64,000 nt of DNA from Kutzneria viridogrisea (GTDB lineage: Bacteria > Actinomycetota > Actinomycetes > Mycobacteriales > Pseudonocardiaceae): NCBI GenBank assembly GCA_014138725.1, contig JACJID010000002.1:1068001-1132000 (forward strand), read 5' to 3'. Shown here one piece after another: positions 1-58,965 of this stretch. A model generated the notes under the pieces. The model did no database searches. It was given only the letters and a program-made list of their open reading frames with translations, and was not told the origin of the DNA. A program made the position numbers and the translations under genes. Numbering within the stretch: position 1 is the stretch's first letter; each line of letters starts with the position of its first letter.

Positions 1-1
1 C

Positions 2-211
2 ATCGCCGAGGGCGTGGTGGTCGGCGCGCTGCGGCAGTCGGTGCGCGAGGCCGCCGAGGAGTTCGCCCGGCGGCACGAACTGGTGCCGGCGCAGGGCGAG
101 GGCCCGGCGTGGCTGAGCCAGCCGGTGCCGGTGCTGCGCGAGCACCTCACCGACTCCGCCGAGGAGGACCCGGACATCGAGCGGTTCCTCGCCGAGGAGG
201 AGCACCAATGA
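2..211 (+). CDS. C-terminal end of an unrecognised protein (partial, 5' end outside window)
   Basis: The open frame enters from the left edge and ends with TGA at 209-211, so only the last 69 residues are visible. They are charged and largely helical-looking, with an acidic tail (DSAEEDPDIERFLAEEEHQ). I recognise no domain. The stop overlaps the ATG of the next gene by 4 nt (ATGA), so it is translationally coupled to the TOMM maturation genes and is probably part of the same operon. Candidates by context would be an exporter, protease or other maturation component, but nothing in the visible residues decides this. Confidence 0.7.
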   Translation: MAEGVVVGALRQSVREAAEEFARRHELVPAQGEGPAWLSQPVPVLREHLTDSAEEDPDIERFLAEEEHQ

Positions 212-969
212 CCACGCTGGTGGCCGATCAGCGGTGGCGGGTGCGGTCCGCACCAGAGGGGGCCGTGCTGTCGGCCGGTGCCGACCTGTCCTACCTGCTG
301 CCCGAGCTGACCGCCGCCGAAGCCGCACTGCTGGCCGATTTCTTCGAGCCGTCACCAGGGGGGACGACCCGGAAGATCGACCCGCGGCGCGTGCCGGACG
401 CGGTGCGCCAGGTGTTGCCGCAACTGCGGACCCTGGGCGCACTGCGTCCGGCCGACCTGCCCACCGGGCCCCGGTTGCGCACCGGGCTGCGCTGGGCCGG
501 TGTGGAACTGCCGGAGTTCCCGTCCACTGTGGACGAAGACCCCGACCTGGTTGTCGTGGTGCGCACCACCGGGACCTGGCGCCAGGTCGCACGGATCGCC
601 GACGAGCTGACCGTCCCGCACCTGCTGCTGGACCTGTCCTACCACCACCGCGCCTCGATCGGCCCGCTCGTCGTGCCGGGGGCCAGCGCCTGCCTGGCCT
701 GCCTCGCCGTGCGGGTCGGCTGGCGCTGGGGCGACGAGCAGCCGCCCGCCCGTCCCCGCGCCACCGAGGACCTGACCTTTCCCGCCGCGCTCGTGCGGCA
801 CGCCGTGCGCCGCATCGGCGAGGGCTCGCTCGCGCTGCTGGAGCGGATCGTCAGCTACGACCTGGACGAGCTCACCAGCACCGCCGAGCAGGTGCTGCCC
901 TCGGCCAACTGCCCGGTGTGCCCGCACCAGCCCGTCGGCCGGACAAGACTGCCCTGGGAGAAGCCATGA
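208..969 (+). CDS. TOMM precursor leader-binding / SagC-like cyclodehydratase partner
   Basis: This 253-residue protein has two CxxC pairs (C162/C165 and C235/C238), the zinc tetrad of the E1-like/ocin-ThiF-type partner proteins that work with YcaO enzymes. Known role in the family: bind the leader of a ribosomal peptide and present its Cys/Ser/Thr to the YcaO protein for azoline formation. The ATG at 208 is chosen over an in-frame GTG at 109 because it gives the ATGA overlap with the preceding gene and removes an Arg-rich out-of-family extension. Its own stop overlaps the next ATG (966). There is no ATP-binding Rossmann core that I can identify, so the protein is probably a non-catalytic partner. 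The family call rests on the CxxC pattern and on the YcaO and SagB neighbours. Confidence 0.75.
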   Translation: MTTLVADQRWRVRSAPEGAVLSAGADLSYLLPELTAAEAALLADFFEPSPGGTTRKIDPRRVPDAVRQVLPQLRTLGALRPADLPTGPRLRTGLRWAGVELPEFPSTVDEDPDLVVVVRTTGTWRQVARIADELTVPHLLLDLSYHHRASIGPLVVPGASACLACLAVRVGWRWGDEQPPARPRATEDLTFPAALVRHAVRRIGEGSLALLERIVSYDLDELTSTAEQVLPSANCPVCPHQPVGRTRLPWEKP

Positions 970-1466
970 CCACGCTCGTCCGGTTGCCCGACCAGTTCAC
1001 CCCCGGCGGGGTCGCCGTGGAAACCGCCGCCACACCGACCTGTTGCTGCTGCTGTTGCGTGGCTTCCGTGGCCGCCGTCGCCACCGCGCTGCCCGCCGGG
1101 CTGGCACAGGACGTACGGACCACGGGAGAGCGGATCAGCCCAGTGATCGCCATGGTCCCGTTGGGCGGCCTGGGCATCGCACTGGCCCCGCTCCTCGCGA
1201 TGATCTCCGGCAGCCGCGCGATCCCCGGGTTCTGGGCGTGGCAGGTACTGGCCTTCGCGCTGGCGGGGATCTTCGTCTACGGGGTGAGCCGCGCGGTCGG
1301 GTCGCCCAGGCCGTGGCGGTCAGTGCTGCGGCTGTCGATGCTGGCGCCTTTGGCGGTGCTGGAGATGATGGTCGTCTTCTCCGCCGGGATCCTGTGGGCC
1401 GGGTTCCTGCTCGCCCCACTGATGATCATCGCTGTGATCGCCTTCTACGGCTTGGACAAGTCGTGA
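966..1466 (+). CDS. Membrane protein with an N-terminal SagA-like Cys6 precursor segment
   Basis: The protein has 166 residues. Residues 1-25 look like a RiPP leader (MTTLVRLPDQFTPGGVAVET, then AATPT). Six consecutive Cys follow at 26-31, coded at 1041-1058, then a small Ala/Val-rich stretch (VASVAAVATALPAG). From about residue 55 there are roughly four hydrophobic segments with short loops. The ...ETAATPT-CCCCCC arrangement resembles streptolysin S precursors (...VAETTQVAPGG-CCCCC), and the gene sits between the SagC-like and YcaO genes with 4-nt overlaps on both sides. I infer that the Cys run is the substrate of the YcaO/SagB enzymes. Either the mature peptide is released by proteolysis, or an azole-bearing membrane protein is the product. 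It could instead be an immunity or export membrane protein whose Cys run binds metal. Confidence 0.75.
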   Translation: MTTLVRLPDQFTPGGVAVETAATPTCCCCCCVASVAAVATALPAGLAQDVRTTGERISPVIAMVPLGGLGIALAPLLAMISGSRAIPGFWAWQVLAFALAGIFVYGVSRAVGSPRPWRSVLRLSMLAPLAVLEMMVVFSAGILWAGFLLAPLMIIAVIAFYGLDKS

Positions 1467-2584
1467 GGACCGCCTCCGCCACACTGCTGGAGCGTGCCGT
1501 CGGCTGGCGGCAGGGTGTGGTCCGCCAACTGCACGAGGTGCCGACCACACCCGCTGACGTGCCGGTCGGCAACTGGGCGGCGATCAGCGACTACGGCACC
1601 TCGGGCGGCGCGGGCTCGGGCGGACGGCTCGCGGCGCTGGCCGAGGCGTTGGAACGGCACGCGGCGGCGAGCTGCCCACTGGAGTCGCAGACCCCGCCCG
1701 CGGGCGCCGAGGTCTGGGACTTCTCCTTGCGCACCAAGGACTACACGCAGGTGTGGACGCTGCCGGGCAACGAGCCGGTCTGGGTGCCCACCGGGCTGGT
1801 CGGACTGAGCCCCGAGTTCGGCATGCAGGCGACCTCCTCCGGGTTGGCCGCCGCACCGTCCACCGAACACGCCCTGTTGCGCGCGTTGCAGGAACTCGTG
1901 GAACGGGACGCCTTCACCGTGACCTGGCTGCACGGCGTGGCGGCGCGGCGGGTCGAGACGCCCGAGGAGCTGGCCCGCCCGGTTGCCGAGCTGGGCGGCG
2001 AGATCACCGTGTTCGACCTGACCCCGGCCTACAGCCCGCACCCGGTCGCGGCCGTGGCGGGCACCCTGCCCATCGCCGGTCGACCGCGGCCGACCCTGGG
2101 GCTGGCGTGCCGCGGCGACTGGGGCGAGGCGGTGCGCAAGGCGTGGCTGGAGTGGTGCCAGGGCACGGTTTTCGTGTCGGTGTGGAGCGCCGAGCACGCC
2201 GAGCTGGCGCTGAGCCCCGAGCAGGTCACCGACTTCGAGCGACACGCCGGGTACTACTGGAGCCACCTGGACCAGTGGCGCCGACTGCCGCTGTGGGGCG
2301 GGCCGCTCGTGACACCAAGCCCTTCATGTCGCGACGACCTCACCACACTCGTGTCCACTTTGGACGCGAACGGGGTGCGCGCGGCATACCGGGAGCTGAC
2401 CACACCGGAGCTGTCGGCCCTGGGGCTGCGCGCGGTCCGCGTGCTCAGCCCGGACCTCACCCCGCTGCACTCCGACCACCGCAGGCCCTGGCTCGGCGGG
2501 CGGACCGGCGACCTGATGTGGCGCTACCCGTGGGCGCGCACGGCGAGGGTGTACCCGAACCCCAACCCGCACCCGCTGGGCTGA
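1463..2584 (+). CDS. YcaO-domain azoline-forming cyclodehydratase (SagD type)
   Basis: This 373-residue YcaO protein starts at a GTG that overlaps the previous stop (GTGA). ATP-binding signatures of the family are visible: an EALERH segment near residues 58-63, and STEHALLRALQELVERDA near 133-150. The C-terminus ends PNPNPHPLG, the PxPxP tail typical of azoline-forming YcaO proteins. Known chemistry: ATP-dependent phosphorylation of the peptide amide during cyclisation of Cys/Ser/Thr to thiazoline/oxazoline. The nearest candidate substrate is the Cys6 segment in the preceding gene. It is a stand-alone D protein, with the C-type partner encoded separately at 208-969. Confidence 0.88.
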   Translation: MRTASATLLERAVGWRQGVVRQLHEVPTTPADVPVGNWAAISDYGTSGGAGSGGRLAALAEALERHAAASCPLESQTPPAGAEVWDFSLRTKDYTQVWTLPGNEPVWVPTGLVGLSPEFGMQATSSGLAAAPSTEHALLRALQELVERDAFTVTWLHGVAARRVETPEELARPVAELGGEITVFDLTPAYSPHPVAAVAGTLPIAGRPRPTLGLACRGDWGEAVRKAWLEWCQGTVFVSVWSAEHAELALSPEQVTDFERHAGYYWSHLDQWRRLPLWGGPLVTPSPSCRDDLTTLVSTLDANGVRAAYRELTTPELSALGLRAVRVLSPDLTPLHSDHRRPWLGGRTGDLMWRYPWARTARVYPNPNPHPLG

Positions 2585-2587
2585 GGC

Positions 2588-3328
2588 GTGAACGCGTACG
2601 AGGAGTTCTGGGCCGCGAGCCGGTTGACCAGGCTCACCCAGCGGCGGCTGGTGGAGCAGCTCGCCGAATACCGCCCCAGGCCCGCGCTGGTCGACCGGCT
2701 GTCCGTGGGCGGCGCACCACTGCGGCTGCCCCAGTCGCGGGACTGGTTGCGGCGCCTGCACTTGCGCCGCCGCAGCGAGCAGGGCTTCGGCGCACGGCCC
2801 ATGTCCGCGCGCGACCTCGGTGCGGTACTGGGTGTGCTGGCGGCAGGCCCGGACGGCCGCCGCGGCTACCCCTCGGCGGGCGGGCTGTACCCGGTGCGGT
2901 GCTACCCGCTGCTGCTCAACGTGGCGCACCCGCTCGCGGGGCGGGTCACCCGCTACGAGCCGGTGGTGCACGCCGTGCAGGACGTGGCGCCCTGCCCGTC
3001 CTGGACCGAGCTCGCCGCGCTGCTGGGGGCCGTGCCCGGGGAGCAGGCCCCCGGCGCGGTGCTGGCGTTCGTGCTCGACGACGCCGACCTGCTGGCGAAG
3101 TACGGGGTTCGCGGCGGGCGGTTCGGCCTGGTCGAGGTCGGCGCCGCCGCGCAGAGCGTGGGGCTGCGGCTGGCCTCGCGCGGCCTGGCGGGCTGCCTGC
3201 TCGGCGGCGCCGCCGACGCGGAACTGCTCGCCCTGCTGGGACTGTCGGGCAGGCAGTTGCGCGTCGGCGGGGTGCTGGTCTGCGGCCGGGCTAGCCGAGG
3301 ATCCGGTGCTGCGACCAGAACGAGCTGA
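2588..3328 (+). CDS. SagB-type nitroreductase-fold azoline dehydrogenase
   Basis: The 246-residue protein has the SagB/nitroreductase signature PSAGGLYPVRCYPLLL (about residues 97-112) and the C-terminal GGRFGLVEVGAAAQSVGLRL helix that packs on FMN. Known role: FMN-dependent oxidation of azolines to azoles. The GTG at 2588 lies 3 nt after the YcaO stop, so it is the last cotranscribed gene of the TOMM set visible here. At about 246 aa it is shorter than many SagB proteins (often above 300), lacking much of an N-terminal extension. Its last 38 nt overlap the 3' end of the convergent M1 peptidase gene. Confidence 0.87.
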   Translation: MNAYEEFWAASRLTRLTQRRLVEQLAEYRPRPALVDRLSVGGAPLRLPQSRDWLRRLHLRRRSEQGFGARPMSARDLGAVLGVLAAGPDGRRGYPSAGGLYPVRCYPLLLNVAHPLAGRVTRYEPVVHAVQDVAPCPSWTELAALLGAVPGEQAPGAVLAFVLDDADLLAKYGVRGGRFGLVEVGAAAQSVGLRLASRGLAGCLLGGAADAELLALLGLSGRQLRVGGVLVCGRASRGSGAATRTS

Positions 3329-4637
3329 GGTTGGTCGAGGTCTTGGCCTGGGCCGCCGCCTTGAACTCGGCGGTGGTGGAGATGCCGTACCAGTGCGACT
3401 GCGCGTACTCCTTGAGCAGCTGCGCCATGGTGGTCGAGCCCAGCAGCCGGTCCAGGTCGTGCAGCGCGCACTTGCCGTAGCCGTACACCACGGTCGGGTA
3501 CCGGCCGGAGTGCTGGTCCCAGTAGGCCATCGGGTTGGTGATGTTCTCCGCCGAGGAGGACCAGGACACGCTGTTCCAGCAACCGGACCCGGTGCGGTTG
3601 AAGTACATGTCGGTGGCGTAGTCGGCGAACGCCTCGTCCAGCCACGGGGTGTTGTACTCGTCGTCGCCGACGATGCCGTACCACCACTGGTGCGCCAGCT
3701 CGTGCACCAGCGCCGTGCTGTTGATCGTCTCCAGGATGAAGCCCGGGTACTCCATGCCGCCGAACCAGAAGTTGTTGTCCAGCACCACGTCCACCTCACC
3801 GTACGGGTAGGCCCCGTACCTCGCGCCGTGCGAGTCCATCGCCTTGGCCGCCGTGCTCAACATGGACGCGGCGGTGCTGGTGCTGACCCCGCTGACCGCG
3901 TAAGTGTTGACCTTCACCCCGCTGGCCGAGGTGGTCGTCTGCTTGGCGAAGGGCCCGGCGCCCCAGGCGAATTCGCGCACCTTGCTCGCGGTGGCCGTGG
4001 TGATCGTGCGCCCGCTGGTGCCCGGCTTGTCGGTGGAGCTGCCGGTGGCCGGGATCAGCAGCGAGCTGGGGTGGTCCAGCACCACCGTGTAGTCGCTGGC
4101 GAGTTGGTAGAAGGCCTCCCCGTTGTTGGTGTACGGGTCCAGGTGCCAGCCCGCGCCGTCGCGCACGGCGAGCACCGGCAGCGCGTTGCCCACGAAGCTG
4201 TAGGCCCCGTCACGGCCGAACCGGTCGCTGGTGCCGGGCACCTTGATGGACAGGTCGAAACCCACGGTGGCCTGCGCGCCCTGGGCCAGCGGCGCGGGCA
4301 GGGTCACCTTCAGCGCGGTGCAGGCCACCTCCAGCGCGCCCGCCGTGCCGCCGGTGAGGTTGCTGACCGTGATCGGCGTGTTCGACGGGCAACTGCCGTG
4401 GTAGTTGTCCCACAGCCGCAGGTACACCTCGGTCAACGCCTGACCCGAGGCGTTGCTGAAGGTCACCGACTCCTTGCCGGTCCAGGTCGCCCCGGTGGAG
4501 TCGCTGCTCAGACTCACCGAGTAGGCCGCCTGGTACGGGGTGCGGACCGGGTCGGTGGCCGCCGAGGCGGTGACCGGGCCGGTGGTCACGAGCAGGGTCA
4601 GCGCGGTGAGCGCGCCGAAGAACGTTCGCCGTGGCAT
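3291..4637 (-). CDS. Secreted M1-family (aminopeptidase N-like) zinc metallopeptidase
   Basis: The 448-residue precursor has an N-terminal signal peptide (MPRRTFFGAL..., Ala-x-Ala near residue 25). The zinc site is HELAHQWW at 311-318, with the downstream glutamate in DEAFADY (E335). The exopeptidase motif appears as GGMEYPG (293-299), the variant used in place of GAMEN by many secreted bacterial M1 enzymes. Known role: removal of N-terminal residues from peptides outside the cell. The protein stops soon after the catalytic domain and lacks the long C-terminal helical domain of canonical aminopeptidase N, as expected for the short actinobacterial form. It is convergent with the SagB gene. A role in trimming the TOMM product is conceivable but not shown. 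Confidence 0.9.
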   Translation of the reverse strand: MPRRTFFGALTALTLLVTTGPVTASAATDPVRTPYQAAYSVSLSSDSTGATWTGKESVTFSNASGQALTEVYLRLWDNYHGSCPSNTPITVSNLTGGTAGALEVACTALKVTLPAPLAQGAQATVGFDLSIKVPGTSDRFGRDGAYSFVGNALPVLAVRDGAGWHLDPYTNNGEAFYQLASDYTVVLDHPSSLLIPATGSSTDKPGTSGRTITTATASKVREFAWGAGPFAKQTTTSASGVKVNTYAVSGVSTSTAASMLSTAAKAMDSHGARYGAYPYGEVDVVLDNNFWFGGMEYPGFILETINSTALVHELAHQWWYGIVGDDEYNTPWLDEAFADYATDMYFNRTGSGCWNSVSWSSSAENITNPMAYWDQHSGRYPTVVYGYGKCALHDLDRLLGSTTMAQLLKEYAQSHWYGISTTAEFKAAAQAKTSTNLSSFWSQHRILG

Positions 4638-4742
4638 GCGGCGTCCCTTCTCCCATGCGCGGTGCCCGCAGGGTGGGCGCCGCAGGTCGGCACAGGATAG
4701 GCAGCCGCGGGGCCCCGTGACCCCGGCCGAAAGGAGGGAGTG

Positions 4743-5408
4743 CTACTCGGCGGCCTCCATCAGGATCTCGAGCAGGGCCTGCGGCGCCTCACCCACGATG
4801 TCGTGCCCCACCGGCAGGGTGTGCACGTTCCACGTGGGTTCCCGGCGCAGCCGCTCGTACAGCTCGGTGAACGGCGTGCCCCGCCAATCGGACAGGTAGA
4901 TGAAGTCCTTGCGCCGGAAGCGGTCCAGCGAGCCGGTGAGCCGGATCCGTTGCAGGAACGAGGCCACCGGGTGCGGGGAGGCCCTCGGGTCCAGCGTCGG
5001 CGGCGGATCGACCGAGTGCCCGGTCGCCGCCGTGCCCGCCACGAACAGCTGCCGGAAGCCGTCCGTGGCCAGTTCCCAGCAGGACTCGCCGTCCCTCGGC
5101 ACGTAGGCATCGCTGTAGACCAGGGCGTCCACTCGCTCCGGTAACCGGTCCGCCGCACCGGTGATCACCATTCCGCCGTAACTGTGCCCGCAGAGCACGG
5201 CGTTCTCGATCCGCTCGTGCTCCAGCAGGCTCACCACGTCCTGGATGTGCATGTCCAGGTTTGCCCCCGCGGCGAGGTGCCCGCGCTCGCCGATTCCGCT
5301 CAACGTCACCGAGTACGCCTGGTGGCCCTGCTCGCGCAGCCCCCGCGCGATCGGTTCGAAATACCACCCGCCGTGCCAGCCTCCTGGCACGAGCACGAAC
5401 GTCGCCAT
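4743..5408 (-). CDS. Alpha/beta hydrolase, esterase-like
   Basis: The 221-residue single-domain alpha/beta hydrolase has an N-terminal FVLVPGGWHGGWYF strand-turn, nucleophile elbow GHSYGG (Ser in the GxSxG), a candidate acid in YSDAYVP and a C-terminal VGHD histidine. This pattern fits the EstX/salicylate-esterase-like group. The ATG at 5408 is preferred over an upstream frame extension because GGAGG (plus-strand 5413-5420) sits at correct spacing. The gene is divergent from the phospholipase A2 gene and shares its 166-bp upstream region. The substrate is unknown. Confidence 0.85.
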   Translation of the reverse strand: MATFVLVPGGWHGGWYFEPIARGLREQGHQAYSVTLSGIGERGHLAAGANLDMHIQDVVSLLEHERIENAVLCGHSYGGMVITGAADRLPERVDALVYSDAYVPRDGESCWELATDGFRQLFVAGTAATGHSVDPPPTLDPRASPHPVASFLQRIRLTGSLDRFRRKDFIYLSDWRGTPFTELYERLRREPTWNVHTLPVGHDIVGEAPQALLEILMEAAE

Positions 5409-5468
5409 CCCGGTTCCTCCCAGTTCCCACTGCACTTCGGACCGTAGCAACGACCCCTGACAAGTCCC

Positions 5469-6850: not shown

Positions 6851-9274
6851 CTACTCCTCGTCCCCGGAACCGCCCCCGTCGCCGCCGCGGATCGTGTAGA
6901 GCACGTTCTCCAACTCGTCCGGCTTGATCAGCACCTCGCGGGCCTTCGACCCCTCGGAGGGCCCGACGACGCCCCGGGTCTCCAGCAGGTCCATCAGGCG
7001 GCCCGCCTTGGCGAAGCCCACGCGCAGCTTGCGCTGCAGCATCGAGGTGGAGCCGAACTGGCTGGTCACGATCAGCTCGGTGGCCTGCAGCAGCAGGTCC
7101 AGGTCGTCGCCGATGTCGGCGTCGATCTCCTTCTTCTCGCCCGCCTTGGCCGAGGTGACGCCGTCGGTGTAGTCCGGCTGCGCCTGGTCCCTGGTGAACG
7201 CCACGATCTTGTTGATCTCGTCGTCACCGACGTAGGCGCCCTGGATGCGGACCGGCTTGCCCGCGCCCATCGGCAGGTACAGCCCGTCGCCCATGCCGAT
7301 CAGCTTCTCGGCGCCGGGCTGGTCCAGGATGACCCGCGAGTCGGTCAGCGAGGAGGTGGCGAAGGCCAGCCGCGAGGGCACGTTGGTCTTGATCAGACCG
7401 GTGACCACGTCCACCGAGGGCCGCTGCGTGGCCAGCACCAGGTGGATGCCCGCGGCACGGGCCTTCTGCGTGATCCGCACGATGGCGTCCTCGACGTCGC
7501 GCGGGGCCGTCATCATCAGGTCGGCCAGCTCGTCCACGATGGCGAGGATGTACGGCCTGGGCCGGTACTCCCGCTCGCTGCCCGGCGGGGCGGTGATCTC
7601 CCCGGAGCGCACCTTGCGGTTGAAGTCGTCGATGTGCCGCACCCGGTTGACCTGCATGTCCTGGTAGCGCTGCTCCATCTCCTCCACCAGCCAGGCCAGC
7701 GCCGCTGCGGCCTTCTTCGGCTGGGTGATGATGGGCGTGATCAGGTGCGGGATGCCCTCGTACGGGGTGAGCTCGACCATCTTCGGGTCGATCAGGATCA
7801 TCCTGCACTCGTCGGGCGTGGCCCTGGCCAGCAGGGACACCAGCATGGAGTTGACGAAGCTGGACTTACCGGAACCGGTGGAACCGGCCACCAGCAGGTG
7901 CGGCATCTTCGCCAGGTTCGCCGTGACGAACGCGCCCTCGATGTCCTTGCCCAGCCCCACCACCAGCGGGTGGGTGTCCTTGACCGTCTCCGGCGCGCGC
8001 AGCACGTCGCCCAGCCGCACCATCTCGCGGTCGCTGTTGGGCACCTCGATGCCCACCGCGGACTTGCCCGGGATCGGCGCGAGCAGGCGCACGTTGTCCG
8101 TGGCCGCCGCATAGGCGATGTTCTTCGTCAGCGCGGTGATCTTCTCGACCTTCACGCCGGGCCCGAGCTCAACCTCGTAGCGGGTCACCGTCGGGCCACG
8201 GGTGAAGCCGGTCACCTGGGCGTCGATGGAGAACTGCTCCAGCACGCCCGTGATCGCCTCGATCATGGATTCGTTGGCGCGGCTGCGGGTCTTGGGCGGG
8301 TCGCCGTCCTGCAGCACGTCCAGCGAGGGCAACTGGTAGTCGCCCTCCACGGTGCGCGTCGGGGCGGGCGGTGGCTTGGGCTTGCTCTTCTCCGGCGTGG
8401 GCTTGGCGGCACGCACCGGCGGCGCCGGCTCGTCCACCGGCAGTTCGAGCTGTTCGGCGGCGGAGGGCTCCTCGTCCATGCTGGCCTGGCGCCGGCGGGA
8501 GGGCCTGCGCAGCCGCACCGAGGACGGGTCCTTCTCCGTGATGTCCTCGTCGGCCGCCTTGCCCCTGCCGCTCCTCTTCTTGTTGCCGGTCTCCTCGGCC
8601 GGTTCCTCGGCCCGGTGACCGGTCACCAGGTCCCGCAGCCGGTTGGGCACCTCGCGGACCGGCGTGCCGGTCAGCAGCAGCAGGCCGTACACGGCGACCA
8701 GCGCGAGCAGCGGCACGGCCACCCACGCGGTGAGGCCCTGGGCCAGGAAGTTGCCCGCCATCCAGCCGATGGCGCCCCCGGCGTGGTCGCCCTCCGTGGG
8801 CGTGGGCGGCGCGCCCAGCAGCAGGTGCAGCAGCCCCAGCACGGCGAGCACGAACAGCGTCGCCCCGACGACGAGCCGCGGGCGGGTCTCCGGGGTCGGG
8901 TCGGTGCGCATCAGCACGATGCCGAAGCCGAGCAGGACCGCGGGCAGCACGAACGCGGCACTGCCGATGCAGGCGCGCACCGCGCTGTCCAGCCAGCCGC
9001 CGACCGGCCCGCCCGCGTGCCACCACACCCCGGCCGCCACCACGACGGCCAGCGCGATCAGCACCAGGGCCACGCCGTCCCTGCGGTGCGCGGGGTCCAG
9101 TTCCTTGGTACGCCCCACCGCGCGCGCGATGCCGCCGACTCCCCTGGCCAGCACGCCCCAGGTCTTGCGGACAGCTGTGCCGCCGGAGGCCGGTTTGCGC
9201 GCGGGTGCCTTGCCACGGGGCTTGGTGGTCCTCCCGCGGCTCGTGCTCCGTTTCGTCGTCGTCCGGCCAGCCAT
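6851..9274 (-). CDS. ftsK: DNA translocase FtsK/SpoIIIE
   Basis: The 807-residue protein starts at an ATG (9274) followed by a basic N-tail. Several membrane segments lie in the first ~200 residues, then an acidic/basic linker, then the RecA-like motor with Walker A GSTGSGKSS. It ends in a gamma winged-helix domain (FGSTSMLQRKLRVGFAKAGRLMD...). Known role: hexameric ATP-driven pump that moves chromosome termini through the closing septum and reads oriented KOPS/FRS sequences through gamma. The length and order match the actinobacterial family. It is divergent from the EamA gene. Confidence 0.95.
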   Translation of the reverse strand: MAGRTTTKRSTSRGRTTKPRGKAPARKPASGGTAVRKTWGVLARGVGGIARAVGRTKELDPAHRRDGVALVLIALAVVVAAGVWWHAGGPVGGWLDSAVRACIGSAAFVLPAVLLGFGIVLMRTDPTPETRPRLVVGATLFVLAVLGLLHLLLGAPPTPTEGDHAGGAIGWMAGNFLAQGLTAWVAVPLLALVAVYGLLLLTGTPVREVPNRLRDLVTGHRAEEPAEETGNKKRSGRGKAADEDITEKDPSSVRLRRPSRRRQASMDEEPSAAEQLELPVDEPAPPVRAAKPTPEKSKPKPPPAPTRTVEGDYQLPSLDVLQDGDPPKTRSRANESMIEAITGVLEQFSIDAQVTGFTRGPTVTRYEVELGPGVKVEKITALTKNIAYAAATDNVRLLAPIPGKSAVGIEVPNSDREMVRLGDVLRAPETVKDTHPLVVGLGKDIEGAFVTANLAKMPHLLVAGSTGSGKSSFVNSMLVSLLARATPDECRMILIDPKMVELTPYEGIPHLITPIITQPKKAAAALAWLVEEMEQRYQDMQVNRVRHIDDFNRKVRSGEITAPPGSEREYRPRPYILAIVDELADLMMTAPRDVEDAIVRITQKARAAGIHLVLATQRPSVDVVTGLIKTNVPSRLAFATSSLTDSRVILDQPGAEKLIGMGDGLYLPMGAGKPVRIQGAYVGDDEINKIVAFTRDQAQPDYTDGVTSAKAGEKKEIDADIGDDLDLLLQATELIVTSQFGSTSMLQRKLRVGFAKAGRLMDLLETRGVVGPSEGSKAREVLIKPDELENVLYTIRGGDGGGSGDEE

Positions 9275-9378
9275 GCCCCATACGGTAGCCCCAGACACAC
9301 CAGTCCCATTGGTCACGCGCTGAGGAGGGTGCCGAAACTGACCCGGGATTGTCAGAGGTGTCGGGCAGACTCGCAACC

Positions 9379-10317
9379 GTGACCACTCAGCTGTCCACAC
9401 CGGTCGGCCGACGTGCGGGCGCCACCGCGCTGACCGTGCTGTCGGCCGTGGCCTTCGGCGCCTCGGGCCCGCTTGCCAGGGCCGCGATGGACGCCGGGCT
9501 GAGCGCCCCGCAGGTGACCACCGCCCGCATCCTGCTGGCCGCGCTCATCCTGCTCGCGGGCTACCTGCCGCTGCGCGGCCTGCCCCGGTTCCGGCGTGAC
9601 CAGTGGCAGGTGCTGCTGGGCTACGCGCTGCTCGGTGTCGCCGGGGTGCAGCTGCTGTTCTTCGTGGCGGTGTCGCGGATCCCGGTCGGGGTGGCGATGC
9701 TGCTGGAGTTCCTCGCGCCGGTGCTGGTGGCGCTGTGGATCCGGTTCGTGCGCCGCACCCGATTACCCCACCTGATGTGGGTGGGCACCGCGTTCGCCGT
9801 GCTGGGCCTGGCCATGGTGGCGCAGGTCTGGGAGGGGCTGCGCCTGGACGGCCTCGGCCTGCTGGCCGGGCTGGGCACCGCGATCTGCACAGCCGCGTAC
9901 TACCTGCTCGGTGAGCACGCGGCGAGCAAGGGCGATCCGTTGGCGCTGACCGCGGCGGCGATGGTCATCGGCGGTGTTGTGGTCAGCGTGGTGAGCCCGC
10001 CGTGGAGCATTCCGCTGTCCACGTTGTCCGCACCCACCAAGATCGGCGTACCGGTGTGGCTGCTGCTCGTCCTGCTGGCCGGGCTGGCCACCGCCTTCGC
10101 CTACGTCACCGGCATCCTGGCGTTGCGGCACCTGCCCTCCGCGGTGGCCGCCGTGCTCGGGCTGATCGAGCCGGTCGTCGCCGCGGCCGGGGCCTGGCTG
10201 CTGCTTGGCCAGGCGCTGACCGTGCCGCAGGTGATCGGCGCCGCGGTGCTGCTGGCCGGTGCCGCGCTGGTGCAGTTCGCCAGCGGACGCAGGCTGGAGC
10301 CCGAGCCGTTGCCCTAG
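9379..10317 (+). CDS. EamA/RhtA-family drug/metabolite transporter
   Basis: The 312-residue protein has about ten hydrophobic segments in two EamA repeats (first near TVLSAVAFGASGPLARAAMDAG, second near LLAGLATAFAYVTGILALRHLPS). Known role of the family: export of amino acids or small metabolites. The GTG at 9379 is chosen over a TTG at 9349 because it starts directly before the first repeat. The stop overlaps the convergent lanC stop by 4 nt (10314-10317). I see nothing linking it functionally to the lanthipeptide genes. Confidence 0.85.
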   Translation: MTTQLSTPVGRRAGATALTVLSAVAFGASGPLARAAMDAGLSAPQVTTARILLAALILLAGYLPLRGLPRFRRDQWQVLLGYALLGVAGVQLLFFVAVSRIPVGVAMLLEFLAPVLVALWIRFVRRTRLPHLMWVGTAFAVLGLAMVAQVWEGLRLDGLGLLAGLGTAICTAAYYLLGEHAASKGDPLALTAAAMVIGGVVVSVVSPPWSIPLSTLSAPTKIGVPVWLLLVLLAGLATAFAYVTGILALRHLPSAVAAVLGLIEPVVAAAGAWLLLGQALTVPQVIGAAVLLAGAALVQFASGRRLEPEPLP

Positions 10318-11585
10318 TCCAACAGCAGGATCGTGTCCCACTCGGTGGTCGGCGGCCGACCGTTCGCGTAGGCGTTGAGTGCGAGCGCGATGCCCACACC
10401 GCCTTCCAGCAGCCCCGGCATGTCCAGGTGCACCTCGGCCGCCGCCTGCCAGTAGCGGTAGCCGAACGGCACCTCTGGGGTGAAGTCGCGCACGAGGCGC
10501 TGTGCGAGGTCGTCGGCGGCCTTCGCCAGCTCGGGATCGGAGGTGTCCCAGGCGAATCGGCACACGGTGTGCAACAGGCCGGCCCAGCCGTGGCACAGGC
10601 TGTGGTCGGTGATGCCCCACTGCCGCTCGGGACGGGCGAGCATCGCGCGCATCGCTTCCGCGGCCGACTCGACCAGGTCGGTCCGGTCCAGCGCTCGGCC
10701 CGCGAGCAGTAGCGCGCGAGCCGTTCCCGGCGTGCCGTAGCACCAGGCGGCACGGGCCGGTGGTGGCACAAGCGAGTCGCGGTCCAGGTAGTAGCTGAGC
10801 GGGATGTGCGCGGTCCAGTAGGAGCCAGCGGTGTCCTGCTCGCGCCACAGCACGAGCCACTCCGCCATGCGCTGGATCGCCTCGTCCTGGCCCGGAACCC
10901 GCACGCCGAGACGCCACGCGACCGCCAACAACGCGAGCGGGCCTGGAAACCCGTGCGCCAGGCCGAAGTTGACCTGCCCGTCCTCGTAGCCGGGGCGGAT
11001 CATCGTGGTGGGCGTGCAGTCGTACCACCAGCCCGGCACCTCGACCCCGCGCCAGGTGAAGTCCCCGGCCAGCTCGGTCAGGCAGGACAGCACCTCCCGT
11101 GCCGCCTCGTGCCCGCGGTGCAGCAGGTACCGGCCGACCCCGCTGAGCCCCTGCACGACGTCGATCACCGAGGGCGCCGTGGGCCGGTTCGCGCGCTGCA
11201 CCCCGACGAGCCAGCGCGCGTGCACCGCCATGTGCTCGTCGAGCCGGGTGAGCATCGCGGCGTAGTCCTCCGGCTGTCGTGCCGCCACCCGCACAGCACT
11301 GGCCAGCGCGCCAAGGCCCTCGAACGCCCCACGTGGTTGCTGGGTCTTGGTGTCCTCGGCCGCACGCGCGAGGAAGCGGTGGGCCTTCTCCTTGTCGCCG
11401 AGTTCGGCGTGCAGCAGTGCGGGCGCCGCGTGCCCCCTCGACAACGAAGTCGGTTCCCAGACCGGCGATGGGCTGCCCGCCACGTCCACGTGCGTGCCGT
11501 GTGCGGTCGTCGCGGCGTGCACCGCGTCCGGATCGCTCAACCGCGCCGCGAGTTCCGCCACCACTTCCGCTGCCGACGAGGTCAT
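10314..11585 (-). CDS. LanC-like lanthionine cyclase
   Basis: The 423-residue LanC-like protein carries the three zinc ligands of the family: C282 in WCYGTPG, and C331-H332 in CHGWAG. It also has the family landmarks GLAHGFPG and the C-terminal PGLLEGGVGIALAL. Known reaction: Zn-dependent addition of Cys thiols to dehydroalanine/dehydrobutyrine to form (methyl)lanthionine. The ATG at 11585 overlaps the lanB stop (ATGA), so translation is coupled. With lanB and the small precursor it completes a class I lanthipeptide maturation set. All ligands are present, so it should be active. Confidence 0.92.
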   Translation of the reverse strand: MTSSAAEVVAELAARLSDPDAVHAATTAHGTHVDVAGSPSPVWEPTSLSRGHAAPALLHAELGDKEKAHRFLARAAEDTKTQQPRGAFEGLGALASAVRVAARQPEDYAAMLTRLDEHMAVHARWLVGVQRANRPTAPSVIDVVQGLSGVGRYLLHRGHEAAREVLSCLTELAGDFTWRGVEVPGWWYDCTPTTMIRPGYEDGQVNFGLAHGFPGPLALLAVAWRLGVRVPGQDEAIQRMAEWLVLWREQDTAGSYWTAHIPLSYYLDRDSLVPPPARAAWCYGTPGTARALLLAGRALDRTDLVESAAEAMRAMLARPERQWGITDHSLCHGWAGLLHTVCRFAWDTSDPELAKAADDLAQRLVRDFTPEVPFGYRYWQAAAEVHLDMPGLLEGGVGIALALNAYANGRPPTTEWDTILLLD

Positions 11586-14542
11586 CCGCGGTGCCGCAGC
11601 TTTCCCAGGTAGGCGCGGACCACACCGCGCAGCACCCCGAAGGACCGCTGCTCGGCCTGTCGGTCCGCACCGAGCAGTCGGTTCGCGTGCATGTGCAGGA
11701 TGCTGCTCGCGTCGGTCGCCCCGGCCAGGGCACGCCACTTGGCGGCGGCTTCGGCTCGGCGCTGCCACGTGTCGAGCAGCGCCGGTCCGCCGTCGAGTTG
11801 GCGCAACTCGTCCCAGCGCAGGCTCGGGTCCACGAAGCGCAACGCCACGTCGCGGTGCGTGCGGAACGAGTTCTGCAACTCGACCGGGAAGGCGTCCACG
11901 ACCCAGCGCATCCAGTCCGCACCGCCGACGCTGCCGAGCAGGTCGGCGTGGTTCATCGCGGCGAGCACCTCGACCGGGATCGGGAGCGCACCTCGATCGC
12001 GCAAGCGAAGCTGCTCCAGGACCGCGAGGCTGTCAGCGTGGAACAACTCCTCGGCGGCCCGCATCGCTCCGGGACCGCCGTAGCGCTGCACCTCGGGCTC
12101 GTAGCTGTCGAGCACGAACTTGCGGATCGCACCGCGTTCGACAGCGCCGACGGCCCAGTCGCGCAGCTCGGGCAGCACCTCAGCGTTGAGCAGATCAGCC
12201 GGGCCGTGCAGCCGCAGGCGCAGGTGCGCGTCGGGGTCCCGGTAGCGCACGAAGAACCAGCGGTCCACGCAGTCGTGCTCGACCAGCCTGGCGAACTCCC
12301 TGCTCAGCAGGCTGTCCTGCAGGTCGGCGAGCAGGTACAGCTTGGCGTGCAGCCACTCGCTCCCCGGATGGTATACGACATTCGATGTGCAATCGGCGGG
12401 CGTGACCTCCGGGCGCTCCGCCTGCGAAAGCAGCGAGACCACCACCTCGTTGGCGTGACCGCCCGTCCAGCCCAGTTCACCGTCCGGTACTTCGTATACG
12501 ATGTGCGATTGCCTCTTGATCAGCTGGGTGCGCAGCAGCCGCTGGTGCAGCGGCACGGTCAGGTCCAGGTCCACGTGGTGGTCGAACACGCTCACCCGCA
12601 CCAGGTCAGGCACCGACCAGTGGTGTCGCCACTGAGCGAGGGCACGCAGCCACACCTCCCACGGGGTCCGCTCCTCGCACAGCACCGGGTCGGGCCGCCA
12701 CCGAGCAGGCGCGAGCACGGTCCGCCCGCATCGGACACGTGGCAAGCGGGGCAGCACGTCCGCGCGGCCCCACTGCCACGGGGTCCACGGACGGGTACCG
12801 CTCACAGCCACGGCGTTCACGAACCTCGCCACGTTCGGCGCCGACTTCTGCAGGTTCAGCATGTGCGGTGCCACAACTGACACCTCGTGCCACGTGGACC
12901 GGTCCACCAGGTAGAACCGCTCGGAGGTGGCGCCGACCGCGAGATCGCGGACGTCGAGCACCCGGTCGTCGTCCGGGTCGGCGAACGTACCGATCGGCAC
13001 CATGCGGTCACTGACCACGGGTGCGAGCACCACGTTCTCGGACCGGGCCTGAGCGGGCTGGAACACCAGCTGCACGCGATCTCCGAGCAGCTGGCGCAAC
13101 CGCTCCTCGCCGTCCAGCAACTCCGTGAACCGGCCCGACATGGCGCCAGCGGTGACCGACCCGCCAGCGCTGGCCACGGCGAGCTGGAACTCACCTCGGG
13201 TGAGCGCCTCGGGTGAGCGCGCGAAGACCTGCACGCAGAGGTCGAGCGACCTCGTCGGCGACAGGGCGCCGTCGTGCGCGAGCGAATCGACCAGTTCCTC
13301 GTCGAGCACGACCTCGTCCAGCAGCGCCAACCGCGCCACGATCTCGTCGCGGCTCACGGGGTACGAGGGCTCGTCGGGTGCGACGCGGTCCCCACCGGGC
13401 ACCTGATACCCCGCCGGCGGCCCGAGCCCCACGTGCGGATCGAGCAGGTCGAGCACGCTCACCGTGCGGTCCACTCCGTAGCGCTCCAGGAAGGCGGCGT
13501 GGTACTCGCGCAGGTAGGACACGCCGTCCACAGCCGGGGCGAGCCGCCACAGCACCGACGCGACCCGCTCGGTTTCGCGGAGCACCTCAGCTGGCAGCAC
13601 CACGTCGGCGTCCACGCGCAGGTCGACCTGGATCGGCGCCTTGTCGGTGCTGGCCAGTTCGCCCATCGCCGACACAGCACGGCGCCACGCGTCTTGCCCC
13701 TCGCCGAGCGGCCGTCGTGCGTAGTCGCCCAACAGGCGCTGGACGTGTCGCAGCTCGGCAACGGCCGGGTCGTCCACCTCGGCGAGCCGCGTCAGGACGT
13801 GGCCCAAGCGGTCCGGCTCGTCGAGCACGGCGGTGACGTCGGTGAGCAGGACCTCGCGCTCCACCAGCTCACCGAGCATGCGGTCGATGACCTCGTCGGC
13901 GGAACCGGCGAACTCGTCACGGAGTCGGCCGCGCAGCACATCGTATGCAATAGGCGATCGGGCGAGGCGGAGCACGGCGCTGACCGCGGGCGAGCAGCCG
14001 ATGGACAGTTCACGATCGCCGTTGCGCACGTAGGGCAGCACGAGCCGAGGCCCGCGCACGAGGCACAGGTTGTTCACGACAACACGCATCGCATCGCGCA
14101 CCGAGGGCCTGCGGCGCAGCTCGGTCAGCACGCTGGCGAGCCACTCCGCGTCCGGGCGCACCCCCTTGACGTGGTCCGCGCCCCACGAGAACCGGGCATC
14201 TGGCCCCGATGAGCTCGGGCAGACCCCGGCGAGCAGTCCGAACGGGGTGGGGCGACTGGCCATGCGCAGCACGTACCGGGTCGCGGCGAACGCGGCACGT
14301 TCCAGCTTCGCGCGGTCCACCGGCCGCCCCTCGTGCACCTTGGCCAGGGTCGCGGCGAGCGAGGCGCTGGACACCTCGATCGCCTCGTGCACGAGCGGGT
14401 CCTTGGTGAGGTCGCGCAGGTAGTCGGCGAGCCGCTGCTCGTAGCCCTCCTGCTCGGGCGCCAGGTCGACCCGCGTGAGATCGGCGCGCGTGCCGGGCAG
14501 CGCCGCGAGCCGGACCACCGCGTGATCAGCCGCTTGGAACAT
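11582..14542 (-). CDS. Full-length class I lanthipeptide dehydratase (LanB)
   Basis: The 986-residue LanB has an N-terminal glutamylation domain (YVLRMASRPTPFGLLAG near residues 90-110 is the family signature). Its C-terminal ~280 residues form the elimination domain (WFFVRYRDPDAHLRLRLHG and DSYEPEVQRYGG). Known reaction: glutamyl-tRNA-dependent glutamylation of Ser/Thr in the precursor, followed by elimination to dehydroamino acids. The ATG at 14542 has AGGGGGA upstream. Both domains are in one chain, which separates it from the split dehydratases of thiopeptides. It lies 67 nt downstream of lanA, with a hairpin between. Short AT-rich motifs (GTATACGA type) recur inside the gene. Confidence 0.93.
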   Translation of the reverse strand: MFQAADHAVVRLAALPGTRADLTRVDLAPEQEGYEQRLADYLRDLTKDPLVHEAIEVSSASLAATLAKVHEGRPVDRAKLERAAFAATRYVLRMASRPTPFGLLAGVCPSSSGPDARFSWGADHVKGVRPDAEWLASVLTELRRRPSVRDAMRVVVNNLCLVRGPRLVLPYVRNGDRELSIGCSPAVSAVLRLARSPIAYDVLRGRLRDEFAGSADEVIDRMLGELVEREVLLTDVTAVLDEPDRLGHVLTRLAEVDDPAVAELRHVQRLLGDYARRPLGEGQDAWRRAVSAMGELASTDKAPIQVDLRVDADVVLPAEVLRETERVASVLWRLAPAVDGVSYLREYHAAFLERYGVDRTVSVLDLLDPHVGLGPPAGYQVPGGDRVAPDEPSYPVSRDEIVARLALLDEVVLDEELVDSLAHDGALSPTRSLDLCVQVFARSPEALTRGEFQLAVASAGGSVTAGAMSGRFTELLDGEERLRQLLGDRVQLVFQPAQARSENVVLAPVVSDRMVPIGTFADPDDDRVLDVRDLAVGATSERFYLVDRSTWHEVSVVAPHMLNLQKSAPNVARFVNAVAVSGTRPWTPWQWGRADVLPRLPRVRCGRTVLAPARWRPDPVLCEERTPWEVWLRALAQWRHHWSVPDLVRVSVFDHHVDLDLTVPLHQRLLRTQLIKRQSHIVYEVPDGELGWTGGHANEVVVSLLSQAERPEVTPADCTSNVVYHPGSEWLHAKLYLLADLQDSLLSREFARLVEHDCVDRWFFVRYRDPDAHLRLRLHGPADLLNAEVLPELRDWAVGAVERGAIRKFVLDSYEPEVQRYGGPGAMRAAEELFHADSLAVLEQLRLRDRGALPIPVEVLAAMNHADLLGSVGGADWMRWVVDAFPVELQNSFRTHRDVALRFVDPSLRWDELRQLDGGPALLDTWQRRAEAAAKWRALAGATDASSILHMHANRLLGADRQAEQRSFGVLRGVVRAYLGKLRHRG

Positions 14543-14561
14543 CGTTCCCCCTGGATGCCGA

Positions 14562-14597
14562 GGTGGGTCGGCCGCGACGTGGCGCGGCCGACCCACC
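14562..14597 (-). terminator. lanA-lanB intergenic hairpin (attenuator-like)
   Basis: A perfect 15-bp inverted repeat (arms 14562-14576 and 14583-14597, loop ACGTGG) lies 12 nt after the lanA stop and 19 nt before the lanB start. No T-run follows. In many lantibiotic operons a hairpin here lets most transcripts stop after lanA, keeping precursor in excess over enzymes. I infer the same role, or 3'-end stabilisation of lanA mRNA. Confidence 0.7.
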
Positions 14598-14609
14598 AGC
14601 GGGATCAGA

Positions 14610-14768
14610 TCAACAGCAGGGCACGCACATGGCGATGCCGAGCCCGTAGGTGTTGACCGTGGTACGCGTCAGGGCGGCGTTCTCCTCGATCTCACGCACG
14701 GTGGTCTCGGTGGACGGCGCGGACGCGGGCACGACGTCGACGTCGAGCTCGAACACAGCGGTGCTCAT
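14610..14768 (-). CDS. Class I lanthipeptide precursor peptide (LanA)
   Basis: The 52-residue peptide begins MSTAVFELDVDVV, where FELDV corresponds to the FNLD/FDLDV box that LanB recognises in class I leaders. The acidic leader runs to about residue 33. The C-terminal part, TRTTVNTYGLGIAM then CVPCC, supplies four Thr (34, 36, 37, 40) and three Cys (48, 51, 52). That would allow up to three methyllanthionine rings and no Ser-derived lanthionine. The start at 14768 is preferred because GAGAGG lies about 10 nt upstream; an in-frame extension to 14879 lacks leader-like features. The leader cleavage site is not evident, and no protease or exporter gene is adjacent. The core is unlike the actinobacterial class I peptides I can recall (planosporicin, microbisporicin), apart from the terminal CC. 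Confidence 0.88.
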   Translation of the reverse strand: MSTAVFELDVDVVPASAPSTETTVREIEENAALTRTTVNTYGLGIAMCVPCC

Positions 14769-57657: not shown

Positions 57658-57687
57658 CACTCCAGGTTTCGACGGGGGATTCTCGAG

Positions 57688-58965
57688 GTGACCACCTTTT
57701 CCGCCACACGCTGGCCGCTGTCGGCCGCACAACAGGGCATCTGGTCGGCGCAGCAGCTGGAGCCGGACAGCCCGGCACACACCGTCGCCGAGTACGTGGA
57801 CATCAGCGGACCGCTGCGGCTGCCCGAGTTCGAGGCGGCGGCGTACCAGGCCGTCGCAGAGGCAGAGACCCTGCACACCCGCTTCGTCGAGGACGGCGGC
57901 CAGGTGTGGCAGCAGCTGCTGCCTGCCGAGTCCTGGCGGCTGAGGCTGATCGACGTCAGCGGGCACGGGGACCCGGTCGGCGCGGCCCTGGACTGGATGC
58001 GCACCGACCTGGCCCGTCCGGTGGACCTGACGCGCGGGCCGCTGTTCGGGCAGGCGCTGTTCGCCCTGTCCCCGAACCGGTTCCTCTGGTACCACCGCGC
58101 GCACCACCTCGCGCTGGACGGCTTCGGCCTGTTCCTGCTCAACCGCAGGGTGTCCGAGCTGTACTCGGCGCTGGTCAGCGGTACCGGCACCGGGGGCGAG
58201 CCGTTCGACCCCTTGCGCCCCGTGTTCGAGCAGGACTCCGCCTACCTGGGCTCCCGCGGGCACGAGCGGGACCAGCGGTTCTGGACGCAGCGCTTCGCCG
58301 ACGCACCGATCCCGGTGACGCTGGCCGGTCGCGGCGCCCCGGCCGGCGCGCTCCCGCTGCGGCGGTCCACCGCGCTGTCCCCCTCGGTGATGGACGGCTG
58401 GACCGACGCGGCGCAGCGCTGCGGCACCAGTTGGGCCACCGTGGTGACCGCCACCGTCGCGACGTACCTGAGGCACATAACCGGCGCGGGCGAGGTCGTG
58501 CTCGGCCTGCCCCGGCTGTGCCGCAGGCGATCACTGTCGCTGAACGTGCCGTGCTCGGCGGCCAACGTGGTGCCGCTGCGGGTGCGCACACCACCCGGAG
58601 CGGGTCTGCACGAGCTGTCCCGCGCGGTGGCCGACGAGGTGCTCGCGGTGTGGCCGCACGAGCGGTACCGGTCGGAGTGGCTGCGTGCCGAGCTGCACCC
58701 GGACACGCCCACGCGAAGACTCCACGGGCCAGTGGTCAGCGTCAACCCGATCGGGTACGAGCTGTCCTTCGGCGGTCACCGGGGCACGGCACGTCCGCTG
58801 TCCCGCGGAGCGGTGGACGACCTGTCCATCACGGTGCAGGGCGGTGACATCGGCACGGGTCCCCGCGTCGACCTCGAAGCGAACCCCGCGCTGTACTCGG
58901 CCGATGACCTGACCGTGCACATGAGGGCACTGCTGGACCTGCTCGACACGGCCGCCGACTGCTGA
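57688..58965 (+). CDS. Stand-alone NRPS condensation-domain protein
   Basis: The 425-residue protein is a single C domain with the catalytic motif HHLALDG (H139, H140, D144, G145) and the N-terminal WPLSAAQQGIWSAQQLEPDSP of starter/LCL-type condensation domains. No adenylation or carrier domain is encoded in the window. Known role: amide or ester bond formation between carrier-bound or free acceptors. It starts 30 nt after the GMC gene, so it is probably cotranscribed. It might acylate a sterol or lipid alcohol, or a small amine, using a carrier encoded elsewhere; this is inference only. Confidence 0.9.
   Translation: MTTFSATRWPLSAAQQGIWSAQQLEPDSPAHTVAEYVDISGPLRLPEFEAAAYQAVAEAETLHTRFVEDGGQVWQQLLPAESWRLRLIDVSGHGDPVGAALDWMRTDLARPVDLTRGPLFGQALFALSPNRFLWYHRAHHLALDGFGLFLLNRRVSELYSALVSGTGTGGEPFDPLRPVFEQDSAYLGSRGHERDQRFWTQRFADAPIPVTLAGRGAPAGALPLRRSTALSPSVMDGWTDAAQRCGTSWATVVTATVATYLRHITGAGEVVLGLPRLCRRRSLSLNVPCSAANVVPLRVRTPPGAGLHELSRAVADEVLAVWPHERYRSEWLRAELHPDTPTRRLHGPVVSVNPIGYELSFGGHRGTARPLSRGAVDDLSITVQGGDIGTGPRVDLEANPALYSADDLTVHMRALLDLLDTAADC

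Follow-up and report, generated by a model that had tools for sequence, protein, structure and literature searches.

The 64-kb window of Kutzneria viridogrisea DNA analysed here contains a gene that joins a leader, a run of six Cys and a polytopic membrane module in a single open frame, between the genes for a TOMM F protein and a YcaO (D) protein and ahead of the gene for a dehydrogenase (B) (Table 1). There is good support for the genetic fusion and for its linkage with the F, D and B genes. What is heterocyclised is very probably the Cys run of this protein. With a slight preference, we propose a TOMM-type pathway that would act on a polytopic membrane protein, whose cytosolic arm would be the substrate; the resulting polythiazol(in)e arm would stay tethered to the membrane. 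The chemistry, the topology and the retention are what we infer from the sequences.

Table 1. Features of the cassette and its upstream neighbour (window coordinates; residues numbered in the fused protein).
Feature	Position	Strand	Basis
MerR-type regulator gene, 3' end (whole gene at 11387-12211 of locus L004)	1..211	+	PF13411, E 1.9e-18
F protein, 253 aa, TOMM leader-binding (ocin-ThiF-like)	208..969	+	TIGR03882, E 1.4e-12, above cut-off
Fused precursor, 166 aa	966..1466	+	Translation; conservation across copies
Leader, residues 1-25, RLPDQFTPG...AATPT	966..1040	+	Identity across representatives; invariants
Cys6 run, residues 26-31	1041..1058	+	Shuffles; codon conservation
Post-Cys segment, residues 32-49, VASVAAVATALPAGLAQD, probable core end	1059..1112	+	Identity drop after it
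Charged linker, residues 50-59, predicted cytosolic, candidate cleavage zone	1113..1142	+	Identity; charge counts
Membrane module, residues 60-162, four hydrophobic segments	1143..1451	+	Hydropathy; conservation
YcaO cyclodehydratase (D protein), 373 aa, ends PNPNPHPLG	1463..2584	+	PF02624, E 2.6e-33, above cut-off
B protein, nitroreductase-fold dehydrogenase (SagB/McbC-type), 246 aa	2588..3328	+	PF00881

The frame of the fused gene starts at an ATGA (966-969) and ends at a GTGA (1463-1466), overlapping the F gene and the YcaO gene by 4 nt each. Its N-terminal leader reads MTTLVRLPDQFTPGGVAVETAATPT and is followed by the six Cys codons TGT TGC TGC TGC TGT TGC. The window has a single stretch of six consecutive TGY codons, none of 100 dinucleotide shuffles has one, and the 10.25-Mb genome has four such places (seven overlapping matches). 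At all four, the window included, an alternative frame reading Leu or Gln is longer than the Cys frame; in the window the Cys frame is open for 449 codons and the Leu frame for 594. Frame length alone is no proof of the Cys reading. The Cys frame in the window is settled by codon-position conservation across 11 representative copies of the 32: within the Cys run, codon positions 1, 2 and 3 differ in 2.8, 3.1 and 45.3% of comparisons, and within the leader in 22, 19 and 44%. A chance Cys run, or a Leu or Gln repeat read in the wrong frame, was thus ruled out by conservation and shuffles, not by ORF length. Leader, Cys run and membrane part share one frame in all 35 intact copies (32 loci). This confirms the claim of the first-pass annotation that a leader-like N-terminus, six Cys and membrane segments are translated together, and supports its interpretation that the precursor is carried on a membrane protein rather than being a short free peptide. 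A promoter and terminator scan found nothing.

The fused-protein family was sampled in 390 genomes of the source's taxonomic family, with the 166-aa protein and, separately, the YcaO protein as queries. A fused-protein homologue was found in 30 genomes (E <= 1.1e-10; next best 5.3e-5), and this YcaO in the identical 30 (E <= 1e-30), which belong to six genera; 22 of the 30 loci are in one genus (g25). The 29 loci besides the window all have F, D and B, with 31 copies of the fused gene between F and D. Tandem precursor pairs occur at L050 and L060 of this taxonomic family and at L101 from genome G663, one of two further carriers found by a profile search of 396 genomes of the phylum. The other is G642 (L102), and both, from two other families, keep the order F, fused gene(s), D, B. 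As carriers amount to 30 of 390 genomes plus two from other families, the fused-protein family is rare but spread across the phylum. Samples of the class (394 genomes) and the order (318 genomes) yielded no new carrier, only known ones, the decayed cassette of G075 and one false match; the two small families to which G663 and G642 belong (2 and 6 genomes, respectively) yielded no further carrier either. A plasmid search with two family members gave no useful match. Absence is soft in the genome searches because they scored 5-11 first-look candidates per genome. The first-pass annotation had proposed to see if conservation of the leader and the Cys run is confined to homologues that adjoin sag genes. 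Both are found in the same 30 of 390 genomes as the YcaO gene, with copies between F and YcaO in 29 of 29 loci. It had also named Cys-less homologues in TOMM operons as contrary evidence; none of the 32 intact loci has only a Cys-less homologue, and an extra Cys-less ORF at L063 sits beside a Cys-bearing copy. The decayed locus L065 of G075 has F and YcaO broken up and the Cys run interrupted (about 7000-9400), so these parts decayed together. Three weak matches were rejected: that in G667 (E 5.8e-5) is cation-efflux-like and has neither leader nor Cys run, and the loci of those in G085 and G371 (L064, L066) have no F, D or B match. In one genome (L044, 8407-8589) an extra 60-aa hydrophobic ORF lies between the F gene and the precursor.

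Conservation is distributed unevenly along the fused protein. Mean identity among the 11 representatives is 71.5% in the leader, 45.5% in the post-Cys segment, 18.4% in the linker, which is the least conserved stretch, and 25.7% in the membrane module. P8, F11 and A22-T25 are invariant in 14 diverse copies. After ATPT, all 35 intact copies have 6-10 Cys or Ser, the only residues that the run-length pattern counted, and the window's run is the shortest. Over these copies the run comprises 283 residues, 277 Cys and 6 Ser, and the departures from Cys among the representatives are Ser codons. Codon positions 1, 2 and 3 differ in 61, 50 and 54% of comparisons in the membrane module and in 62, 66 and 62% in the linker; there is no third-position excess in either, and selection is therefore visible mainly in the N-terminal part. 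To judge from these comparisons, the leader and the Cys codons are under strong purifying selection and the membrane part diverges. Since the leader is much more conserved than the module, it appears to be kept like an enzyme-recognition site, and exchange of Cys for Ser, another heterocyclisable residue, would be the pattern expected of a cyclodehydratase substrate. The family is described by the motif LPDxF[TS]PG...ATPT[CS]6-10 ahead of hydrophobic segments and beside TIGR03882 and YcaO genes, distant copies varying in the first part. As this motif is simple, the family is directly searchable and testable.

The Cys run could instead be a metal or redox thiol cluster that is not heterocyclised, with F, D and B acting on something else. 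Poly-Cys is able to bind metals, and no product is known for the cassette. This explanation is highly unlikely given the strict co-occurrence of fused protein and YcaO in the same genomes, a leader more conserved than the membrane part and the six Ser among the run residues, which fit a cyclodehydratase better than a thiol ligand. In addition, no plausible alternative Cys-rich precursor was found in an ORF scan of the 32 loci. An ORF counted as a candidate if it had a Cys-rich run and no more than 130 aa. There are none in the window's own locus (L004, 19 kb), in L101 or in L102; 20 of the 32 loci contain some, several of which overlap known genes or the precursor itself. A separate short Cys-rich gene upstream of position 1, the other observation that would have counted against the first-pass annotation, is absent from L004, which reaches 12 kb upstream. 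An SCCSC-containing ORF recurs on the opposite strand in 9 of the 22 g25 loci. It was rejected as an off-frame reading, because a conserved ATPase-like gene occupies the same DNA and stops interrupt the ORF in several loci.

We then consider the enzymes. The first-pass annotation described 4-nt coupling on both sides of the fused gene, with a SagC-like gene before it and a YcaO gene after it. The coupling and the YcaO gene stand, and the gene before is better described as a TOMM F protein, as TIGR03882 matches all 12 aligned F members (E <= 0.01). Four Cys are invariant in these members (C162, C165, C235 and C238). Against solved structures, the F profile matches the C domains of TruD (E 4.5e-6) and LynD (E 0.0016), with no match for the leader-binding part in the same profile search; the AlphaFold model of the F protein has a pLDDT of 36.2. 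The YcaO protein matches TIGR03604 with E 6.2e-38, below the cut-off of that model, and its C-terminus is P.P.PHPLG in 12 of 12 aligned members, an ending of the kind described for azoline-forming YcaO proteins. Its profile matches TruD, LynD, MusD, McbD and two stand-alone YcaO structures. The B gene starts 3 nt after the YcaO gene. TIGR03605 matches all 12 B members (E <= 0.001), the window copy scoring 46.4 bits, below the cut-off of 78.4, and the best solved match is McbC (E 1.3e-7). McbC needs a Lys-Tyr pair, and K171-Y172 is invariant in the B proteins. Because family matches, invariants and structural relatives are kept, the F, D and B set looks competent.

The membrane module has roughly 105-135 aa and is fused in 35 of 35 copies. 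No fitting family for the fused protein or the module was found in Pfam, NCBIfam or the PDB. Single members of the module family match PF13828 (E 3.8e-4) and NF001958 (E 8.4e-4), and PF21971 gives weak matches in 26 of 32 members (best E 0.048), which in the window copy cover residues 25-37, that is, the Cys run. A single-sequence model of the fused protein consists of helices only, at low confidence (pLDDT 61.6). Hydropathy gives four hydrophobic segments in residues 60-162, as the first-pass annotation had estimated; over the whole protein it gives five in 10 of 14 copies and four in the other 4, the first being the Cys stretch itself. The linker carries 3-7 Lys/Arg in 13 of 14 copies and 2 in the window copy. 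In the same 14 copies the first outer loop has 0-1 Lys/Arg, except for 3 in one copy, the loop before the E133 segment 0-4 and the C-terminal tail 1-6. Asp/Glu equal Lys/Arg in the linker of at least three copies. This pattern agrees with four spans and cytosolic N- and C-termini, an orientation in which F, D and B could reach the arm; for the window copy the assignment is weak because the positive and negative charges of its linker balance (2 Lys/Arg, 2 Asp/Glu). E133 (1362-1364) is kept in 14 of 14 diverse copies and R122 (1329-1331) in 13, and the conserved Glu and Arg suggest that the module does more than anchor the arm.

At L063 (8312-8569, minus strand), an 85-aa ORF without leader or Cys is coupled by 4 nt between the precursor and the YcaO gene. 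It is related to the C-terminal half of the module (hhalign probability 82%; pairwise BLAST alone was not significant), which hints at an independent role for the module. A stretch resembling this ORF was also seen by eye in L065. The relative has its own start, and internal start-like codons such as M63 are present in the fused gene, as would be needed if an internal start gave a separate membrane protein and the full-length form were only a precursor. The fused frame is kept in 35 of 35 copies despite a variable linker length, and we regard such a pair of products as very unlikely, the least probable of the explanations.

In the pathway that we propose, membrane insertion would leave the N-terminal arm of the fused protein facing the cytosol, as the charge pattern suggests. 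The F protein would grip the leader motif LPDxF[TS]PG, as expected from its family. Thiazolines would then be formed on the Cys run by the YcaO protein and oxidised to thiazoles by the SagB/McbC-type enzyme, two steps suggested by the enzyme families and by the selection on the run. The polythiazole arm would finally stay tethered to the membrane module and work in the producer's own envelope. Two observations favour retention: the core belongs to the same chain as the module, and among the ORFs listed within about 8 kb no gene for a protease or exporter was recognised as accompanying the cassette. More tentatively, and at somewhat short of an even chance, a dedicated YcaO/F/B cassette may permanently arm a resident actinobacterial integral membrane protein with polythiazole, so that the chemistry would serve a component of the producer's own membrane instead of a secreted antibiotic.

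The serious rival to retention is release, in which the modified N-terminal part would be cut in the linker (about residues 50-59) and leave the cell, the module being a docking site, an exporter or an immunity protein. The sharp fall in identity from the post-Cys segment to the linker is what release would lead one to expect, although a drop at residue 50 is as compatible with a tether as with a cleavage site. The separate L063 relative, which indicates that the module may stand alone, and the tandem precursors of three loci, an arrangement known from peptide-antibiotic clusters, also point this way. However, no protease or transporter was recognised by eye among the listed ORFs common to the genera in neighbourhoods of about 8 kb, although genes for such proteins may lie elsewhere in the genome. 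All 30 loci of the taxonomic family have one gene order, and 22 of these loci belong to a single genus, a pattern that a strain-specific antibiotic would not typically show. We regard release as rather unlikely. An ABC-transporter-like pair and a metallopeptidase-like ORF were seen by eye within 5 kb of the cassette on the opposite strand in G642 (L102, 3685-7635, minus strand). In the window, an EamA-type permease-like ORF lies beyond FtsK (9358-10317, by eye), and a similar ORF starts beyond FtsK in L062.

The surroundings of the cassette are also conserved. In 29 of 29 other loci of the taxonomic family the order is PspA-like, ClgR-like, RimO, acetyltransferase, MerR, F, precursor, D, B, phospholipase A2 and FtsK, and the window agrees over the part that it covers. 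MerR and phospholipase A2 were tested as such; the other neighbour names (PspA-like, ClgR-like, RimO, acetyltransferase and FtsK) are those that we presume. G663 and G642 share only F, precursor, D and B with these loci. The MerR gene overlaps the F gene by 4 nt and, in all intact loci except L101 and L102 (30 of 32), precedes it, and the phospholipase A2 gene (PF09056; 5575-6012 in the window) is downstream of the cassette in 30 of 32. Five of five same-genus genomes have MerR at the site and lack F, precursor, D and B (L103-L107), and in the non-carriers L109 and L110 the phospholipase A2 gene is near the acetyltransferase gene without the cassette. Both genes were rejected as cassette parts, since both occur at the site in cassette-less genomes and therefore look like neighbours. 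MerR is thus probably a neighbour, which may regulate the cassette. Across 29-30 loci, the distances between cassette proteins correlate with those between neighbours (r 0.93-0.97 with RimO, 0.78-0.84 with FtsK); within g25 (22 loci) the coefficients are low and vary widely (r -0.08 to 0.64). The cross-genus distances appear to track chromosomal neighbours, as for a resident trait. In the window's own locus alone among the 32, an M1-type peptidase gene and an alpha/beta hydrolase gene (3291-5450, minus strand) lie between the cassette and the phospholipase gene.

Compared with known systems, the cassette shows the genetic hallmarks of TOMMs, or linear azol(in)e-containing peptides, in its D protein, F protein, B dehydrogenase and conserved leader with a Cys/Ser/Thr-rich core; in place of a short free peptide precursor, all 35 copies are fused to the membrane module. 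The solved relatives of B (McbC), D (TruD, LynD and McbD) and F (TruD and LynD) come from McbBCD, the microcin B17 synthetase, and from TruD/LynD, whose substrates are soluble peptides. With streptolysin S and the TOMM cytolysins (SagA, SagB, SagC and SagD) the cassette shares the B and D enzyme families and a set of contiguous heterocyclisable residues after an N-terminal leader, an arrangement that passages of PMC4513790 and PMC4603692 describe for SagA. SagA, however, is a short free peptide, whereas the core here precedes a polytopic membrane module. The cassette also has an F protein where streptolysin S has a full SagC, and no SagE-like protease or SagGHI-like transporter was recognised by eye among the listed ORFs common to the genera within about 8 kb. 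TIGR03602, which describes SagA-type sequences, has no significant match in the fused protein (2 of 32 members, best E 0.86), and of the first-pass label "streptolysin-S-like" only the Cys run is left. According to a passage of PMC4603692, members of the streptolysin S family have at least 10 contiguous heterocyclisable residues after a Gly. In the fused proteins AATPT or ATPT stands instead of the Gly, and the run has 6-10 Cys/Ser, or 7-11 residues with the preceding Thr.

The TOMMs that depend on an F protein, such as heterocycloanthracin and the thiopeptides, resemble the cassette in their ocin-ThiF-like F, YcaO D and B proteins. They differ in that the cassette's D protein is a separate gene without a fused C domain and its precursor is a membrane protein. 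The portion of PMC4603692 on F proteins outside the heterocycloanthracin and thiopeptide classes counts only two, both orphans, and the word "membrane" has no occurrence in the main text of that paper. TMcins, described in a preprint of June 2026 (PMC13252029), are RiPPs whose precursor is likewise located in the producer's membrane. According to passages of the preprint, they have a single helix that is part of the product, disulfide chemistry with two conserved Cys, and a dedicated intramembrane S2P-like protease, DsbA-like protein and ABC transporter; these passages mention neither YcaO nor thiazoles. The fused protein has instead a poly-Cys run, several hydrophobic segments and F, D and B as neighbours. 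The same portions of PMC13252029 state that no RiPP enzymes have been characterised as acting on transmembrane proteins.

By their sequences, the enzymes F, D and B are of known kinds. The new part is a probable TOMM-type substrate that forms the front of a polytopic membrane protein, outside the narrower streptolysin S family. No TOMM precursor fused to a polytopic membrane protein was found in literature titles and abstracts, with few subscription papers covered. Because RiPP precursors are usually sought as short ORFs, one at the front of a membrane protein readily escapes notice. YcaO chemistry extends to polytopic membrane proteins if the arm is modified; if the arm also stays in place, thiazole chemistry would have a role in the cell envelope besides that in secreted toxins.

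Other biosynthetic genes were observed in the window and the genome. A class I lanthipeptide cluster at 10314-14768 (minus strand) encodes a LanB-type dehydratase (PF04738, PF14028) and a LanC-like cyclase (PF05147). Just upstream of these genes, a 52-aa ORF (14610-14768, minus strand) with an FELD motif ends in MCVPCC, and we take it to be the likely precursor, of the FxLD type. At 55336-58965, a GMC-oxidoreductase-type protein beside a condensation-domain protein (PF00668) marks the probable start of a nonribosomal peptide cluster. Elsewhere in the genome, two further YcaO matches lie side by side (G000:C10:302633-305240), and two consecutive YcaO ORFs are described for Kutzneria albida in a passage of PMC4210621.
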